The notes under the pieces were generated by a model. That model was not told the DNA's origin, did not search any database, and worked only from the letters and a program-made list of their open reading frames with translations. Both the position numbers and the translations under genes were made by a program. A DNA stretch of 31,151 nt from a virus: positions 1 through 31,151 of IMG/VR virus record IMGVR_UViG_3300030104_000999, one strand, 5' to 3'. Shown one piece after another: positions 6,397 to 13,451 of the stretch; the stretch's first letter is position 1; every line of letters begins with the position of its first letter.

Positions 6397-7833
6397 TTAG
6401 ATAGACCAGTTATAAGCCAGCGACACGTTTTTCTTAGACGCGCTGTCGACTGAGTAAAAAACGCTTCTGGATTGAGCGACGACGTCGAATACCGATCTGG
6501 TAATGTCTTTCGAAATTTCGACGCTTGCACCAGACCGTACACCCAATTTAAACCGGCTGCGATTGCAGAGGATTACAGATGTCTTATTCGTGGTCGACCC
6601 GTCGTAAAGTCCAGACGCATTAAGATCGCCACCGACGAATTCGGACAGGATAATCGGACACCCGCTAATCTGCGAAATTTGACCACTAAGCGCAGTGAAG
6701 TTTGGACCCCACTGTTCCAGCGTCTTCGCCTCCGAAAGTCCGACCAGATGCTTTAAATATGCTTCTGGCGATGCGATTAAAATAAGGTCGCCGTCGACAC
6801 CGTGTGGTGCGTCCAGTGCAGAACGAAGCGACAGAACGCCTGCTAAATCTGCAGTGGCTGCGACATCGGTGGAAAGGTCGAACGCACGGTGGCGTAAGCC
6901 CATATACGTTTTCCTATGATCGGAAGCAGTCCCAAGACCAGAAGCACCCCATCGACCCCTAATATTCCAAGACGCGAGTGCGTCGACGTCGCCGCTGGTT
7001 TCGGTATTACCGTTTAGCAAACAGTCTTCTTCCGCATCGCGCAGACTCTGTACGATTTCCTGCGAAATAATAGGCATCGCGGCCAGAATACTGTCTTCGC
7101 TCGCGTCTGCATCCACCTGCGCCCTAACGGCCATACCAGACGCTGTAATGGTGCGCTGGTCTGTCGACATGCTGCTGCTGGTAAATTGCGCGACGTCATC
7201 GCCACCACTGGCGATTTTCTTATATGGTCGGAAACCGGTCGAAAGGTATGGAAGGATAACAGTCTTATCGGCCATCGGTACGACTTCGAAAAGTGAAGCT
7301 AACCGACGTTCCATCGTTAAATCGCGTTCCAGCTGCGGAAGCATTACAGACGGAATCCAGTCGCCACCACTTCCGTCGACATCGACGAATGCTTTTCGTA
7401 CAGATGGATTCGGTGCGCGACTAAGAATTTCGTCCAGTCGTGCTTTCGCTTTCGGTGCTTCGCCATTACGACGAATCGCGCGAACCATATTGTAATCCGT
7501 AAGCGCCTTCTGTGCGTCGTTCTGCCAGTCGGTAACTGGTGCGTCGTCCATTAGACCGGGCATATACGCATGGTCGTCTGTAGCTTCGCCACGAATGCGA
7601 ACAGTACCGTCGCGTCGTACGTACTTATCCAGCGATCCGTCGCCACGTTCGCCAGTGTAACCACCGCCTGCTTCCAATTCCGACAGTCGTTTACTGATCT
7701 TCGAAAGGTCCGCTGTCTTCTTTTCAATGTTTTCGTTAAGGTCGCGATTAAGTGCTTTAAGTCGCTTCTGTTCGCTTACGATGTCTGCGAGCGCCTTACG
7801 TGCTTTGTTCGGTGTAGAAAGATCGATGGACAT
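6397..7833 (-). CDS. Major capsid protein, HK97 fold
   Basis: The product has 478 residues. The first about 65 residues are a charged helical segment (EQKRLKALNRDLNENIEKKTADLSKI region) like the delta or scaffolding domain that the prohead protease removes. The mature part shows HK97-family features: GGDWIPSVMLPQLERDL, a PYLSTGF segment, the DAEEDCLLNGNTETSGDVDAL motif, LILIASPEAYL and a C-terminal AQSRSVFYSVDSASKKNVS. I start at the ATG at 7833, which has GGAG ten bases upstream. An upstream in-frame ATG at 7872 lacks a ribosome site. The protease gene lies directly upstream, as in HK97-type heads. The 53-base gap before the gene holds a short 6-bp hairpin. Confidence 0.9.
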   Translation of the reverse strand: MSIDLSTPNKARKALADIVSEQKRLKALNRDLNENIEKKTADLSKISKRLSELEAGGGYTGERGDGSLDKYVRRDGTVRIRGEATDDHAYMPGLMDDAPVTDWQNDAQKALTDYNMVRAIRRNGEAPKAKARLDEILSRAPNPSVRKAFVDVDGSGGDWIPSVMLPQLERDLTMERRLASLFEVVPMADKTVILPYLSTGFRPYKKIASGGDDVAQFTSSSMSTDQRTITASGMAVRAQVDADASEDSILAAMPIISQEIVQSLRDAEEDCLLNGNTETSGDVDALASWNIRGRWGASGLGTASDHRKTYMGLRHRAFDLSTDVAATADLAGVLSLRSALDAPHGVDGDLILIASPEAYLKHLVGLSEAKTLEQWGPNFTALSGQISQISGCPIILSEFVGGDLNASGLYDGSTTNKTSVILCNRSRFKLGVRSGASVEISKDITRSVFDVVAQSRSVFYSVDSASKKNVSLAYNWSI

Positions 7834-7886
7834 TTTTCTGTGTCTCCGGTTTAAGGTCGTGTATTCGGTCATACACTTTTTAGGGT

Positions 7887-8843
7887 TTATTTGTCAATTC
7901 CGAAAAGGGTATTTAAGCCTTTCGTCGATTCGATGTGTGTGTCGAACAGTGCTGGATCTGTTCCCATTAAATCCAGAACAGCGCGTCGAACAGACATGCG
8001 AAAATGCTTCTGTGCTTCTTCTTCGTCTTCGTCTTCGTCGTCTTCTTCTTCTTCTGGTGCAGCGTCTTCGTCGTCGTCTTCGTCGTCGTCTGCTTCGACA
8101 TAAACGTCTTCGTCTTCGTCTTCGTCGTGTTCTGGTTCGTGTTCTTTATTTTCGTCTTCGTCGTCGTCCATGTATCGAAGTCGATCTGGATCGTGGTCTT
8201 CGATTACTTCAAAGTCGAACGACATCGAAGCGCCTTCGTGGTCGTCGGAATCGCCAGCCATTAAAACCGGTCCGCCTTCGTAATCCATCCAGTGATACCC
8301 ATCTGGCGCGTCGACTTCCATGCTGGCTTGCTTCTGTATTTCGGACATTTTCGCGTACTCCTGATTCGCAGCGCGTATCGCGACAGCGTCCCGGTTAGCC
8401 GGGATCGGCACTGCTGATATTTCTTGTAACTCGGATTTAGTGTACCAGTAACCGGTCGCACCGTGCGCTGGATGGTCGTCGGGTAGCTTCGACCGTTCGA
8501 TGGTTTCGCCCGGTGTAAACCCGACAGACACTGCGTTTAGGAATCCACGCTTAAACTGCGACGCGACGGTCTTTCCAAGTGGGTTCGATTCGCTGTCGTC
8601 CCATTCGATTGACGCGACCAGATTCTTTCCTTCGATGTCGATGTCGACCACGCGACCGACTGGTGGAAGCGTGTAATCGTGCGCCCATACCACGACCGGG
8701 TTCGACTTAAAGTGTTCCAGATTCCATTCGGAATCGACGACGTCGTTATATCTGTCTGGTGTCGGTGTGCTGGCGATAACTGTGGTTCGTCCAGACCGGT
8801 CGGTCGACGACCGTAAAACCATCGTGCGATAATGTCGTTTCAT
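7887..8843 (-). CDS. Prohead protease with long acidic C-terminal tail
   Basis: The 318-residue product belongs to the HK97-type prohead serine protease family. It shows STPTPDRYNDVV near the N-terminus, the His in VVVWAHD (H55), the Ser in NAVSVGF (S106) and the ELQEISAVPIPANRDA segment at 138-153. The catalytic domain ends near residue 165. The rest is unusual: residues about 196-277 form a tract almost only of Asp and Glu, followed by a basic, conserved-looking helix (residues 278-318, HFRMSVRRAVLDLMG). That layout suggests a fused scaffold that fills the prohead and is later digested. The start overlaps the portal stop (ATGA). Confidence 0.88.
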   Translation of the reverse strand: MKRHYRTMVLRSSTDRSGRTTVIASTPTPDRYNDVVDSEWNLEHFKSNPVVVWAHDYTLPPVGRVVDIDIEGKNLVASIEWDDSESNPLGKTVASQFKRGFLNAVSVGFTPGETIERSKLPDDHPAHGATGYWYTKSELQEISAVPIPANRDAVAIRAANQEYAKMSEIQKQASMEVDAPDGYHWMDYEGGPVLMAGDSDDHEGASMSFDFEVIEDHDPDRLRYMDDDEDENKEHEPEHDEDEDEDVYVEADDDEDDDEDAAPEEEEDDEDEDEEEAQKHFRMSVRRAVLDLMGTDPALFDTHIESTKGLNTLFGIDK

Positions 8844-11311
8844 TTTTTAACCCTCGATACAATCGTACACCGACAGTTTATGTCTAAACTGGCATGTCCG
8901 AAACCACCCGGATGCGCTGATTTTTTACCGACGTGTTCCGACGGTACACCAGCGCCAGCAGGTACCACGAACATTTCGCCGGGTCCGACCGATACGTTCT
9001 GGTCGTCAAGTTCGCGATGCGCTGGTCTGGCATTAGGCGAAGCGATCCAGAATATTTCCATTTCGATTCCACGCTGCGACAGTTCTTCGTACGTCTGTCG
9101 TGTACCAGACGCGACTGCTTTTGTGGTTTCGGTTCGACTGACACGTAAAGCGCGTTCTGCAGAAAATGCGTGGTTCTGCATTAGGTCCGACTGCATTTCT
9201 GCGATCGTCTTACCATCGTCGATACCGTCTTCGATTACCTTTACGACTTCTGTTTCTGTAAACCGGTACACGTTTTCCGTTAGATCGGCCATGATGGTCG
9301 CGACCTTATTCTGTATCCATTCAGGGGTTACGATTTCGCCGGTCTGGTCTGCGTTCTTTAAAGCCTGCGCGATCGCCCTTCGTACCATTTTTTCGATAAG
9401 TGGTCGCAGCTGGCTGTCGAGCGTGGCGCGTTCGACGCTTTCTGCTAAGATTTCACGAATCCACGTGTCGCTTAGTGTGGCGCGTTTAATCGACTTCTGT
9501 GCTGGTAATACGTCTTCCAGTCGTTTCGCTGTGCGTGCAGCCTGCCCGCGAAAGTATCGACGAACCAGTTTATTAAATGCGCGTTCGTATGGATGGTGGA
9601 AGTTATCGACGAACGCGCGTGCGTACTCGGATCGCGCTGCTGCGTCTGTTACGTCGCGACACACATCGATTAAATCGTACGACTGTTCGATCTGTTCTGG
9701 CGTCGTTCGCGACAGCCACTGCGCACCGTCTGGTGTGCGGTTCAATCGAAGACCATACTGTCGCAGCGTGCGCAGCGCATTCTGTTCTGTGTCTTCCGAT
9801 ACATTTACAGCACCGTCGACCAGCGCCTGCGCAGCGTCGATCGGTATCATCGGAAACGCGACCAGTATTAACTGGACACCAGCGTCGTTAGTAAGCGCAC
9901 CAGACGCGACTGCTGCTAATACTTCCAGCAGCGACGCGATCTGCGCACCGTTTAACGCCTGCGCTGCGACTGGCTGGTCTGGTTCGACTTCTGCGACGAC
10001 TGGATCGTCTGCGTCGACTGGCTGGTCTGGTTCGTCTTCGTCCAGTGGTGCGTCGTCTTCGTACGGTGCTGGTGCGGGTGCTGGTGCAGTGTCACCCATA
10101 AGCGCGTCGAACGGGTCGATAATGTTATCGGTCGGTAAGTCGTCGAACCCTTCGTACGACGCTGCATCTGCGATCGGTACGCCCATACTTACCCACGTCA
10201 TAACGCGATTTACGCGATCGTTCCGCGACTCCTGCAGCGCCTGTACTCCACTAAAATCGAAGTGGACAGACAAGTCGTCGCCGTCTGGAAACAGTTTCGC
10301 CAGTCGATTTAGTTCCGACGAAACCAGTTCCATTTTTCCGCGTATCCCCTCCCAATAACGCACCGCCTGTTCCCTGCTGGTCGCGTAATTCGCAGACGGT
10401 AAACCGACGCGTGTGGGCGGTACGTCAAGACAGGCGAGAATCGCAGACACAGTAAATTCGCGTACACTTGAGAATTCCATGTCTTTCGGTGACCATCCGA
10501 CCGGAGTGTAATCGCACGCACCACCCATAACCAGCAGACCCGATCCACTCGACATCTGGCGTTCTGTCGCGCTGCGAATGGTCTTAATCATTTCGGACGA
10601 CCATCTGTCTCCTTCTTCCGACGGCGAAATTATACCTGTCGGACGTCCAGTCTGCGCAGATGCTGCAGTTAACTTCTGCGTACGTCTGTCGGTCATTAGA
10701 TCGTTATGTAACGACTGTATCGCACCGACACCCCATAACGACCGTGGATCGTCGGCCCACGATGGCGTACGAATGTGCAGTACCTGTTCGTACGTGTATG
10801 TCTGAGGTTTACCGCCACCGTGGTATTCGTACGAACCCGGCTGTCCATCTGACTGTGGAAAAATGCGTACGCGACTTGGATGCAGACGTAACAGTGCTTC
10901 TGGTTCTGTCGATCCAGCGATTAAGATAAAGCAGTCGCCAGTAAGTACCAGATCGGTAACGCACTGTCGCCAGAACAGTACAGATGGAATACGCGACGAT
11001 GGATTATTTAACAGACGCGATAATGCGTGGTCGTCTGCTGGTTCTGCGTCTTTACCTTCGCCACGAACCACGCGTATCTTTAAAGACGAAGCGTCGGACG
11101 CGAGCGCAGAAACAGCAGCGTAAACGAATGGAAACGAAGCCATCGAAGACAGCGACGACAGTGGATCGTATGCCGGTGTCGACGGTGCGTTAGGTATAAA
11201 GTCCGCACCAGCACTGTGGTTTATCTCGCCTTCTGGCGACACGTCGACCAGTTTTAACGCACGCAGGACACGGACGAAAAGACTGTCGCGAATGGCAAGA
11301 TTAGAACCCAC
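8840..11311 (-). CDS. Portal protein fused to MuF / SPP1 gp7-type head protein
   Basis: The product has 823 residues. Residues 1-400 are an HK97-family portal: SRLLNNPS near 98-105, LTGDCFILI, TYTYEQVLHIRTP and the diagnostic LDVPPTRVGLPSANYATSREQ at 295-315. A Pro/Asp/Glu linker (about 408-450) is followed by a LNGAQIASLLEVLAAVASG module near 453-471, known from portal C-termini. Residues about 555-823 are a MuF-type head protein with RVSRTETTKAVASG (723-736), WIASPNARPAHRELDDQNV (755-773) and a final CRC pair. MuF proteins sit inside the head and may be ejected. The start is GTG at 11311 without a clear ribosome site, after an in-frame TAA four codons upstream. The fusion removes the usual separate minor head gene. 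Confidence 0.9.
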   Translation of the reverse strand: MGSNLAIRDSLFVRVLRALKLVDVSPEGEINHSAGADFIPNAPSTPAYDPLSSLSSMASFPFVYAAVSALASDASSLKIRVVRGEGKDAEPADDHALSRLLNNPSSRIPSVLFWRQCVTDLVLTGDCFILIAGSTEPEALLRLHPSRVRIFPQSDGQPGSYEYHGGGKPQTYTYEQVLHIRTPSWADDPRSLWGVGAIQSLHNDLMTDRRTQKLTAASAQTGRPTGIISPSEEGDRWSSEMIKTIRSATERQMSSGSGLLVMGGACDYTPVGWSPKDMEFSSVREFTVSAILACLDVPPTRVGLPSANYATSREQAVRYWEGIRGKMELVSSELNRLAKLFPDGDDLSVHFDFSGVQALQESRNDRVNRVMTWVSMGVPIADAASYEGFDDLPTDNIIDPFDALMGDTAPAPAPAPYEDDAPLDEDEPDQPVDADDPVVAEVEPDQPVAAQALNGAQIASLLEVLAAVASGALTNDAGVQLILVAFPMIPIDAAQALVDGAVNVSEDTEQNALRTLRQYGLRLNRTPDGAQWLSRTTPEQIEQSYDLIDVCRDVTDAAARSEYARAFVDNFHHPYERAFNKLVRRYFRGQAARTAKRLEDVLPAQKSIKRATLSDTWIREILAESVERATLDSQLRPLIEKMVRRAIAQALKNADQTGEIVTPEWIQNKVATIMADLTENVYRFTETEVVKVIEDGIDDGKTIAEMQSDLMQNHAFSAERALRVSRTETTKAVASGTRQTYEELSQRGIEMEIFWIASPNARPAHRELDDQNVSVGPGEMFVVPAGAGVPSEHVGKKSAHPGGFGHASLDINCRCTIVSRVKK

Positions 11312-11344: not shown

Positions 11345-11560
11345 CTACCTTCGACCCGTATTCGCAGTCGCGAACAGACTTCGCTGTTCTGGTTCTGCAG
11401 TCCTGTTTATTCGGTCGCACGCGTCGCAGCGCCACGCCACAGAAAGACGCGCTGGTCGTCCACCTTTCGCACAGACATCTGCAGCGCGTTTCGCTGCTGC
11501 GTAACCGCGTGGACTTCCACTGCTTTCGTGCGAACAGTACCGACACCACAGTCTAAACAT
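11345..11560 (-). CDS. Small zinc-ribbon protein (Com-like layout)
   Basis: The 71-residue product has two Cys pairs, WCRYC (C6, C9) and RCDACDRINR (C45, C48), with the second pair placed in a pattern like Mu Com-type zinc ribbons. It starts inside the end of the methyltransferase gene with GGAAG six bases upstream of the ATG. Com in phage Mu activates translation of a DNA-modification gene, so an MTase neighbour is suggestive, but homology is not shown. A second frame here (ECLDCGVG onward, ending near 11398) also looks protein-like but has no start codon. The frame choice is therefore uncertain. The gene is rich in Arg. Confidence 0.5.
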   Translation of the reverse strand: MFRLWCRYCSHESSGSPRGYAAAKRAADVCAKGGRPARLSVAWRCDACDRINRTAEPEQRSLFATANTGRR

Positions 11561-12074
11561 TCGCGTCTTCCAGCTGGTTACCCCACGACGACCACCCGTC
11601 GCGCTGCGTGCGTGCGAACATTTCCAGATATGGTCCGACACTTCGCGCTTCGATTAGATCGTACGCCTGCTGTGGCTTCTGGCTATGCTTTCCGCGTGGC
11701 GCATGTAACCACGACGTAAGCGTACGGTCGTCGGTCTTCGCGCTGTACCCTTTACCGCGAACCGCGAACAGCAGGTGTTCGTGTCGCATTCTGAAATACT
11801 GACCTAAACCGGGTCGACCATCCTTCGTCCAGACGACGTTCGTTTTATACGTGAACCCGAGACATCCAATTAACCACAGTGCGTCTGGTAAGTGGTTCGC
11901 AGTCGTCCACATGTAAAGATGCGCGTCGTCTGCTGGTCGCCACACGCCAGACTGCAGAACGACCTGTGGAATGTCTGGTGTTTTTAGAAGTGGGTAATGG
12001 CGATCTGCGCCACGCTTTATTCGACCACCACCAGTTTCGTTCCACGGTGGGTCCATTAAGATCGTTCTGTACAT
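11553..12074 (-). CDS. MT-A70 family adenine methyltransferase
   Basis: The 173-residue product is a compact MT-A70 family enzyme that would transfer a methyl group from S-adenosylmethionine to the N6 of adenine. The catalytic DPPW is at residues 8-11, HLYMWTTANHL follows near 53-63, and the cofactor/target motif GKHSQKPQQAYDLIEARS lies near residue 130, then YLEMFARTQRDGWSSWGNQ. The order (DPPW first) is that of the MT-A70 group. The start is directly after the terminase stop. It probably methylates the phage genome to escape host restriction or marks DNA during packaging. The recognition sequence cannot be read from the protein. Confidence 0.85.
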   Translation of the reverse strand: MYRTILMDPPWNETGGGRIKRGADRHYPLLKTPDIPQVVLQSGVWRPADDAHLYMWTTANHLPDALWLIGCLGFTYKTNVVWTKDGRPGLGQYFRMRHEHLLFAVRGKGYSAKTDDRTLTSWLHAPRGKHSQKPQQAYDLIEARSVGPYLEMFARTQRDGWSSWGNQLEDANV

Positions 12075-13451
12075 TTAACCCACTCCGAAAGTGCTGGACC
12101 CTAACAGCGACACCATGTAACGAAGTGCATCTAAACAGTGGTCGTCGCGTTTAAGGGGTAAATCTGGCTGGTTTCGTTTCGTGTTCGTCGTGTCCCATCT
12201 GTACGACTGGAATTCGTGTACCAGTGGCCGCATCTGTGGCGTGTCGTGTACGACGATGTGTGGTTTACCATTCGCGTCGAGCGACATGCGTTCCATAACT
12301 GCAGAAAGTCCTGCACGAATCGATCCTTTTCCTTTACGCGCAGCGACGGTGTGTATGTCGTATTCGCGAGACAACGACAGACGACTTCCACGGTCTTCGC
12401 TGTCTGCGACGATCCATTCTGGTTTCTGGTCGTTTAGCTTTTTAATACACTCGGAATGGACGCGTAATGTGGTTTCGGTTCGATGATGCAGGCGATACAG
12501 ATGCAGTACGTCGTCTGCTGGATCGACTGCGCCTAATAAATACACGAATGGATTACGAGTACCAAAATCTATCGCACCGACCCGTATCCACGACGGATCT
12601 GGCAGAAATGGCTTTACTAAATGGACCCGTCTGTCGAAGCGATAGACCAGACCTTCCATCGCAGTAAACTCGCCTTTATCGCGTGCTGCGCGTTCGTGTG
12701 TCCCGTAACTGCGCAGTATGCGTTCGCGCTTCGTCTGGTCGATAAAGGGGTTATCGCCACCGTGGATATAATGGACCTTCGTACCGACATCTGGTGTTTC
12801 GACGAATCGTTTATATACCCACGACGTTAGACCCTTTAACGGTGTCATGGTCAGCAGCAGCCAGCCAGATCGACCCTCCCATCGAACGCGCGTTACACGC
12901 TGCAGTGCTTCATTATAAACCGCTTCGTCGTGTTCTTCGTCCAGCCAAATTAACCCGGCACTGTGTCCTTGGTAACTGCGAGCGCCACTGTCGTTAGTAA
13001 CGAATATTACCTTATTTCCATTCGGTACCTGCGCGACACTGGTACCGGGTCCACCTTCGTTACGCCAGACCGTACCTGCTGGAAGGTAACGACGCAGTGC
13101 TGCACGCTGCACGTGGATCGACAGACTCGCGTTAAGACTGGACGCCAGCACCGTCGCACCGTCTGGTGGTATCAGCGATGGATCGACGTCGTTATTCTGT
13201 ATCCACTGCGCGACCGCTGGATCGTTACGACCACACACGACTGCTGCTGCGATCTGCGCACCTAACTCTGTCTTACCAGCACCATTACCACCAGCAGCCA
13301 GCGTCGCGTCGATACCCGGTTCCATAAGTGCTAATCGCTGGCTGGATTTAGGCGGTTCGTTATGCCATAGACCAGCGTACGCCAGTGGTCGATCTGCTTT
13401 TCCACGCTCCCACTGCGACAGCGCCTTTATCGCTGCGTCGTTTAGTCTCAT
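12075..13451 (-). CDS. terL: Terminase large subunit (ATPase and nuclease)
   Basis: The 458-residue product powers DNA packaging and cuts the concatemer. The ATPase half has Walker A GGNGAGKT at 54-61 and Walker B LIWLDE at 167-172, followed by the LLLTMTP coupling motif near 198-204. The RNase H-like nuclease half has acidic residues in AIDFG (D295), IVADSED (D350) and RDDHCLDALRY (D437, D441). Its ATG overlaps the small-subunit stop (ATGA). The protein is a little shorter than many large terminases but all key motifs are present. Confidence 0.95.
   Translation of the reverse strand: MRLNDAAIKALSQWERGKADRPLAYAGLWHNEPPKSSQRLALMEPGIDATLAAGGNGAGKTELGAQIAAAVVCGRNDPAVAQWIQNNDVDPSLIPPDGATVLASSLNASLSIHVQRAALRRYLPAGTVWRNEGGPGTSVAQVPNGNKVIFVTNDSGARSYQGHSAGLIWLDEEHDEAVYNEALQRVTRVRWEGRSGWLLLTMTPLKGLTSWVYKRFVETPDVGTKVHYIHGGDNPFIDQTKRERILRSYGTHERAARDKGEFTAMEGLVYRFDRRVHLVKPFLPDPSWIRVGAIDFGTRNPFVYLLGAVDPADDVLHLYRLHHRTETTLRVHSECIKKLNDQKPEWIVADSEDRGSRLSLSREYDIHTVAARKGKGSIRAGLSAVMERMSLDANGKPHIVVHDTPQMRPLVHEFQSYRWDTTNTKRNQPDLPLKRDDHCLDALRYMVSLLGSSTFGVG

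Follow-up and report, generated by a model that had tools for sequence, protein, structure and literature searches.

Does this virus contig encode a portal protein and a MuF-type head protein as one chain, and if so, what joins the two halves and where would the second one end up? The window analysed here is the whole 31,151-base virus contig. A first-pass annotation had placed such a fusion at positions 8840-11311; these coordinates were confirmed, and we add that the gene lies on the minus strand, for which none had been given. On this strand the order is terminase large subunit, MT-A70 methyltransferase, fusion, S78 protease and major capsid protein, with a head-tail adaptor beyond. The features are:

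12075..13451 (-), terminase large subunit, used as query for related contigs
11553-12074 (-), MT-A70 methyltransferase (PF05063, E 4.6e-16), a gene inserted between those for terminase and portal
8840..11311 (-), gene of the portal–MuF fusion, one open frame of 823 aa with a GTG start
10133..11194 (-), portal domain of HK97 type, residues ~40-393 (Phage_portal match in Pfam at 63-378)
9956..10132 (-), linker rich in acidic residues and proline, residues 394-452, predicted to be disordered
9806..9952 (-), module A (LNGAQ), residues 454-502, predicted to form a unit of three helices (model helices at about 455-503)
9680..9805 (-), spacer from module A to MuF, residues 503-544, partly of low confidence in the model
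9251..9679 (-), helical region at the N-terminal side of the MuF half, residues 545-687 (PHROG 2468, structure model)
8861..9250 (-), MuF core, residues 688-817 (Pfam Phage_Mu_F)
7887..8843 (-), S78 prohead protease, 318 aa, long acidic C-terminus (PF04586, E 2.5e-7)
6397..7872 (-), major capsid protein of HK97 type, with a coiled-coil delta region at its N-terminus

The start of the prohead protease gene overlaps the stop of the fusion gene by four bases. An ORF of 508 aa on the plus strand (8832-10358) is antisense to the fusion gene and was treated as a shadow frame.

Portal and MuF domains in one frame

No hidden stop or frameshift was found in the 823-codon frame. The N-terminal half matched Phage_portal (PF04860) with 151.7 bits against a cut-off of 39.1 (E 3.5e-44, profile positions 3-310 of 321), and the C-terminal part matched Phage_Mu_F (PF04233) with 38.9 bits against 29.6 (E 1.6e-9, profile positions 2-111 of 112). 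By these profile scores the match to both domains is far above chance level. PHROG 2468 (head morphogenesis) matched residues 575-818, and PHROG 2662 (717 positions) aligned residues 39-821 to profile positions 40-709 and thus spans both halves as the window protein does, but is labelled as portal protein only. Below their cut-offs were the NCBIfam portal_HK97 (89.8 vs 112.05) and TIGR01641 phageSPP1_gp7 (23.0 vs 39.65) matches. Frame and Pfam results accordingly bear out the proposal of a portal and a full MuF domain in one chain with a linker and a distinct LNGAQ module between them. All motifs that had been quoted for it were located, namely LDVPPTRVGLPSANYATSREQ in the portal at the claimed residues 295-315, LNGAQ at 453-457, RVSRTETTKAVASG at 723-736, WIASPNARPAHRELDD at 755-770 and CRC at 813-815. 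In an alignment of 19 sequences the MuF core residues T727, E728, W755, R762, N812, C813 and C815 were invariant.

The full-chain structure model (mean pLDDT 73, pTM 0.44) consists of a portal half and a MuF half joined by a disordered linker; the pTM of 0.44 leaves the relative placement of the halves unfixed. Its best structural matches were portals. With Foldseek the portal fold matched the Mycofy1 and Rhodobacter GTA portals (E ~1e-12), HK97 (7e-11) and also T5. The top PDB match, the Mycofy1 portal, was dismissed as a solved fusion because its chain has only 466 residues, and no solved portal–MuF fusion was found among the structural matches. The MuF half is modelled as long helices (557-746) followed by an alpha/beta end. 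In HK97-type portals the C-terminal crown faces the head interior, so residues after about 393 should lie inside the head.

Relatives and integrity of the frame

A search with the single protein (P0001) found no relatives among viral or genome contigs. Since the first fusion alignment was too divergent to serve as a query, we searched first with the terminase and next with a portal alignment, which yielded 19 contigs and 29 loci, respectively; scanning the genome contigs with the portal alignment gave no match. Wherever a contig spanned the region and its portal belonged to the window's family, portal and MuF lay in one frame.

The window is a single virus contig, and an assembly or sequencing error could in principle have joined two genes in it. 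However, the fusion was open in independently assembled contigs, among them L013, L015, L016, L018, L021, L025, L028, L032-L034, L039-L041 and L044, and it also occurs in annotated isolates. In the close pair L037/L018, moreover, dN was 0.005-0.014 and dS 0.27-0.30 in the portal, the linker and both MuF segments. As dN is far below dS in every segment, this argues for purifying selection on the whole chain as a protein, across the junction as well. This test rests on relatives because the window's own comparisons are mostly saturated at synonymous sites. On these comparisons the assembly-error explanation is refuted, and we give it practically no weight.

A larger tree comprised 88 distinct portals, gathered by module and portal searches and hence not an unbiased census. 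A MuF match in the same frame was found for 38 of them. A further 16 showed only a MuF-like cysteine pattern (CxxC…CRC) at their ends, which is suggestive of a MuF domain; Pfam, applied to six of these, gave a sub-threshold MuF match for L207 and none for the other five. L150 was left out of both counts because of its portal–B–protease architecture. As a separate observation, the portal of L006 (2794-5031, MW202897.1) has a C-terminal DUF3626-like domain (PF12294, E 7.9e-7) and a separate minor capsid gene downstream.

Exchangeable modules in the hinge

In relatives of the window, module A is swapped for other modules or missing. Four alternative modules make up the hinge layouts: A, the LNGAQ unit of the window (about 49 aa); B (about 108 aa, signature WFARHEADKDGEGF…GYPSPGRVAWALWGGD); C (about 127 aa, signature NFPADGDD…IWRxGGNIKGNEQ…REAWxARH…AGVVAQMKWLVVGSRGE); and D (about 99 aa), which matches DUF5824 (PF19141) with 26.5 bits vs 25. 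The combinations A-B, A-C and D-C, or no module at all, also occur in the window's family. Even portals that are 73-79% identical to that of the window have either A or B in the hinge: the window and L013 carry A, L033 carries B, and so does L032, whose portal is the most similar one (78% identical over the columns used for the tree). At least 13 changes of module state are needed on the tree of 31 MuF-fused portals, where 6 would be the minimum, and 27 on the tree of 88 portals, a rough one with long branches, where the minimum would be 8.

The clearest pair comes from a single metagenome (3300030372). As assembled, the contigs L037 and L051 share 93.3% nucleotide identity upstream of the slot and 90.4% downstream, and 32 nt in L037 correspond to 425 nt with module C in L051, an in-frame difference of 393 nt or 131 codons. 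By these alignments the hinge is a cassette slot that takes modules singly or in tandem and leaves both ends undisturbed.

The module A segment alone gave no significant hit, nor any match to cultured phages by tblastn. Homology of modules B and C had been considered because of a shared RH…G.VA…W pattern and was rejected, as the profile comparison gave only 4.9% probability. A model of D+C (pLDDT 86.7) was all helical and had no match at E<=0.001 among solved structures; in a viral library it matched, among others, proteins with the names ChaB, XkdF and prohead protease, which we regard as context only. A literature search for DUF5824 found no paper.

Modules on other head proteins

With profiles built in this analysis, module B was found in at least 92 frames, in at least 19 of which it directly precedes an S78 protease; among the matches listed, it is also found on a second type of portal and on either side of MuF. 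In a Salinibacter phage a protease-like domain with a weak S78 match has modules C and D ahead of it, and in a Roseobacter phage a protease-capsid fusion is preceded by B and D. That portals and prohead proteases have these modules in common suggests, as far as sequences can tell, that the modules serve one purpose inside the procapsid.

Several further arrangements were observed. The frame L150:1444-4056 combines portal, module B and S78 prohead protease and is thus a portal–protease fusion. L061:3425-5026, from a Nodularia phage and labelled minor head protein, combines Hva1_TUDOR, module B and InPase in a polyvalent-type architecture. A further module, 'YPNEHAARL…F..F…GG.GIDFIYGI…RFDA…EAR.WL.EHDF.PI.FE', stands before the protease domain in phages of Roseobacter and Synechococcus (residues ~219-300 in L056 and ~121-205 in L059). 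In the Salinibacter phage 12_10, a gene judged by eye to encode a TnpB/OrfB-like transposase-associated protein (L058:1681-2925) is flanked by the MuF gene and the protease-like gene that bears the modules. The prohead protease of the window itself has an exchangeable-looking segment after the catalytic domain, where 'GYHWMDYEGGPVLMAGD' is common to the window and the distant relative L039; at roughly that place the proteases of L013, L016, L018, L032 and L044 carry a segment of the 'KHIL.VEET…ITYAKG' type.

Is the chain cut or made in two forms?

The linker contains 18 D/E and 11 P within residues 394-453 and no Lys or Arg within 394-451, where the modelled pLDDT is below 50. It changes fast: the linkers of the window and L013 are 41% identical, their portals 75%. 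Such fast evolution is expected for a spacer and for a cut site alike. One might suppose that the fusion is a polyprotein whose linker (about 394-452) is cut by the S78 prohead protease at maturation, which would release MuF into the head interior, either alone or together with the module; the sole use of the fusion would then be the delivery of MuF in equal amounts. The disordered, acidic and fast-evolving linker and the prohead protease gene directly downstream are in favour of this. However, comparison of the relatives by eye, without a reference cut site and thus a weak test, revealed no linker motif in common with the delta-domain region of the capsid protein. We consider cleavage possible but rather doubtful. 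A repeated 'xxWLV' around module C was discarded as a protease site, since the ends of the capsid protein and protease that were examined did not show it.

A mixture of fused and free MuF would also arise if an internal start gave a second MuF product. L013 indeed has internal GTG/ATG codons with short GAGG sites (residues 462, 492 and 512), but no start preceded by a Shine-Dalgarno sequence was found at residues 380-640 in the window, L032 or L033, so an internal start is not conserved. The missing Shine-Dalgarno sequence is itself weak evidence because several genes here have no recognisable one. Overall, a second product appears quite improbable.

Discussion

We conclude that this locus probably encodes a genuine one-chain portal–MuF protein, in which the portal crown runs via a linker and an exchangeable module into an SPP1-gp7/MuF-like domain in the head; we put the probability of this reading at roughly three in four. 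The fusion as such is already known, and the swappable hinge is the new part. The initial remark that portal and MuF are normally two genes was partly right: the fusion is already present in PHROG 2662, in GenBank product names and in the literature. Jacobs-Sera et al. 2020 described portal–MuF fusions in Microbacterium phages (PMC7302621), where clusters EA3, EA5, EA8 and EB have portal and then MuF in one chain like the window. GenBank gives the product name 'portal and MuF-like fusion protein' to MargaretKali gp5 and Brynnie gp5. MargaretKali, of the Arthrobacter/Microbacterium phage group, has a gene order similar to that of the window, with terminase, a small gene, fusion, protease and capsid. 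Its gp5 is 20% identical to the window protein in a five-sequence alignment, and its MuF half reaches just 18.9 bits in Pfam, less than the cut-off. Unlike in the window, none of the modules A-D was detected between the halves of fusions of the MargaretKali type. A limited search of the open-access literature found no earlier description of a swappable portal–MuF hinge.

The two functions of the fusion are also those of SPP1 gp6 and gp7, of which gp7 binds the portal and enters the procapsid. In SPP1, gp6 directs a few copies of gp7 into the procapsid, and only ~25% of the virions without gp7 are infectious (PMC6316719). SPP1 uses two genes, with gp7 in few copies and dispensable, whereas the window has one chain. 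Mosaic head proteins with extra domains on MuF or portal are also found among the polyvalent proteins, for which Iyer et al. 2017 reported PBECR fused 'to MuF and portal domains' (PMC5512222). However, polyvalent proteins bear recognisable enzymes (PBECR, 2H, PRTase, InPase), whereas modules A-D belong to no recognised catalytic family. Pfam, PHROGs and NCBIfam revealed no enzyme family in the window protein, which speaks against counting it among them. Roseobacter CRP-821, Synechococcus S-CBS3, phiPsal1 and Salinibacter phages carry modules B, C and D on prohead proteases or protease-capsid fusions; there the modules precede the S78 protease, whereas in the window's family they follow the portal.

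Most likely, as far as the models indicate, the portal crown displays MuF and the variable module inside the procapsid. The N-terminal half would form the portal ring, and from its inward crown the chain would continue through the flexible acidic linker and the small exchangeable helical module into the MuF-like domain. MuF would thereby enter the procapsid together with the portal, in up to twelve copies per particle. The covalent fusion would replace the non-covalent binding of a few gp7 molecules to gp6 in SPP1 and would make recruitment of MuF unavoidable, in an amount equal to that of the portal. Twelve copies in the head are to be expected provided that the chain stays whole and the portal forms the usual dodecamer with its crown inward. 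We infer an interior location, this copy number and a packaging role for MuF.

The modules fit an assembly adaptor or cargo alike; an adaptor would be in keeping with their presence on the protease, another protein of the procapsid interior. A wider, tentative idea, which we think rather unlikely, is that the C-terminus of the portal serves as a general docking slot inside the procapsid and that phages exchange a small set of helical modules between the portal–MuF hinge and the protease N-terminus. Interchangeable factors, be they adaptors for assembly or cargo that travels with the DNA, would then be loaded at the portal vertex at fixed stoichiometry.

Portal–MuF fusions are ordinary enough that an annotation term for them exists, as a SEA-PHAGES function; of the two findings, the exchangeable hinge is the more important. 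Here a structural protein that was thought to be tightly constrained in its geometry tolerates the in-frame gain, loss and swap of modules of about 50-130 residues, even between close relatives. If the chain is uncut, it would be a natural system that ties the copy number of MuF to that of the portal.
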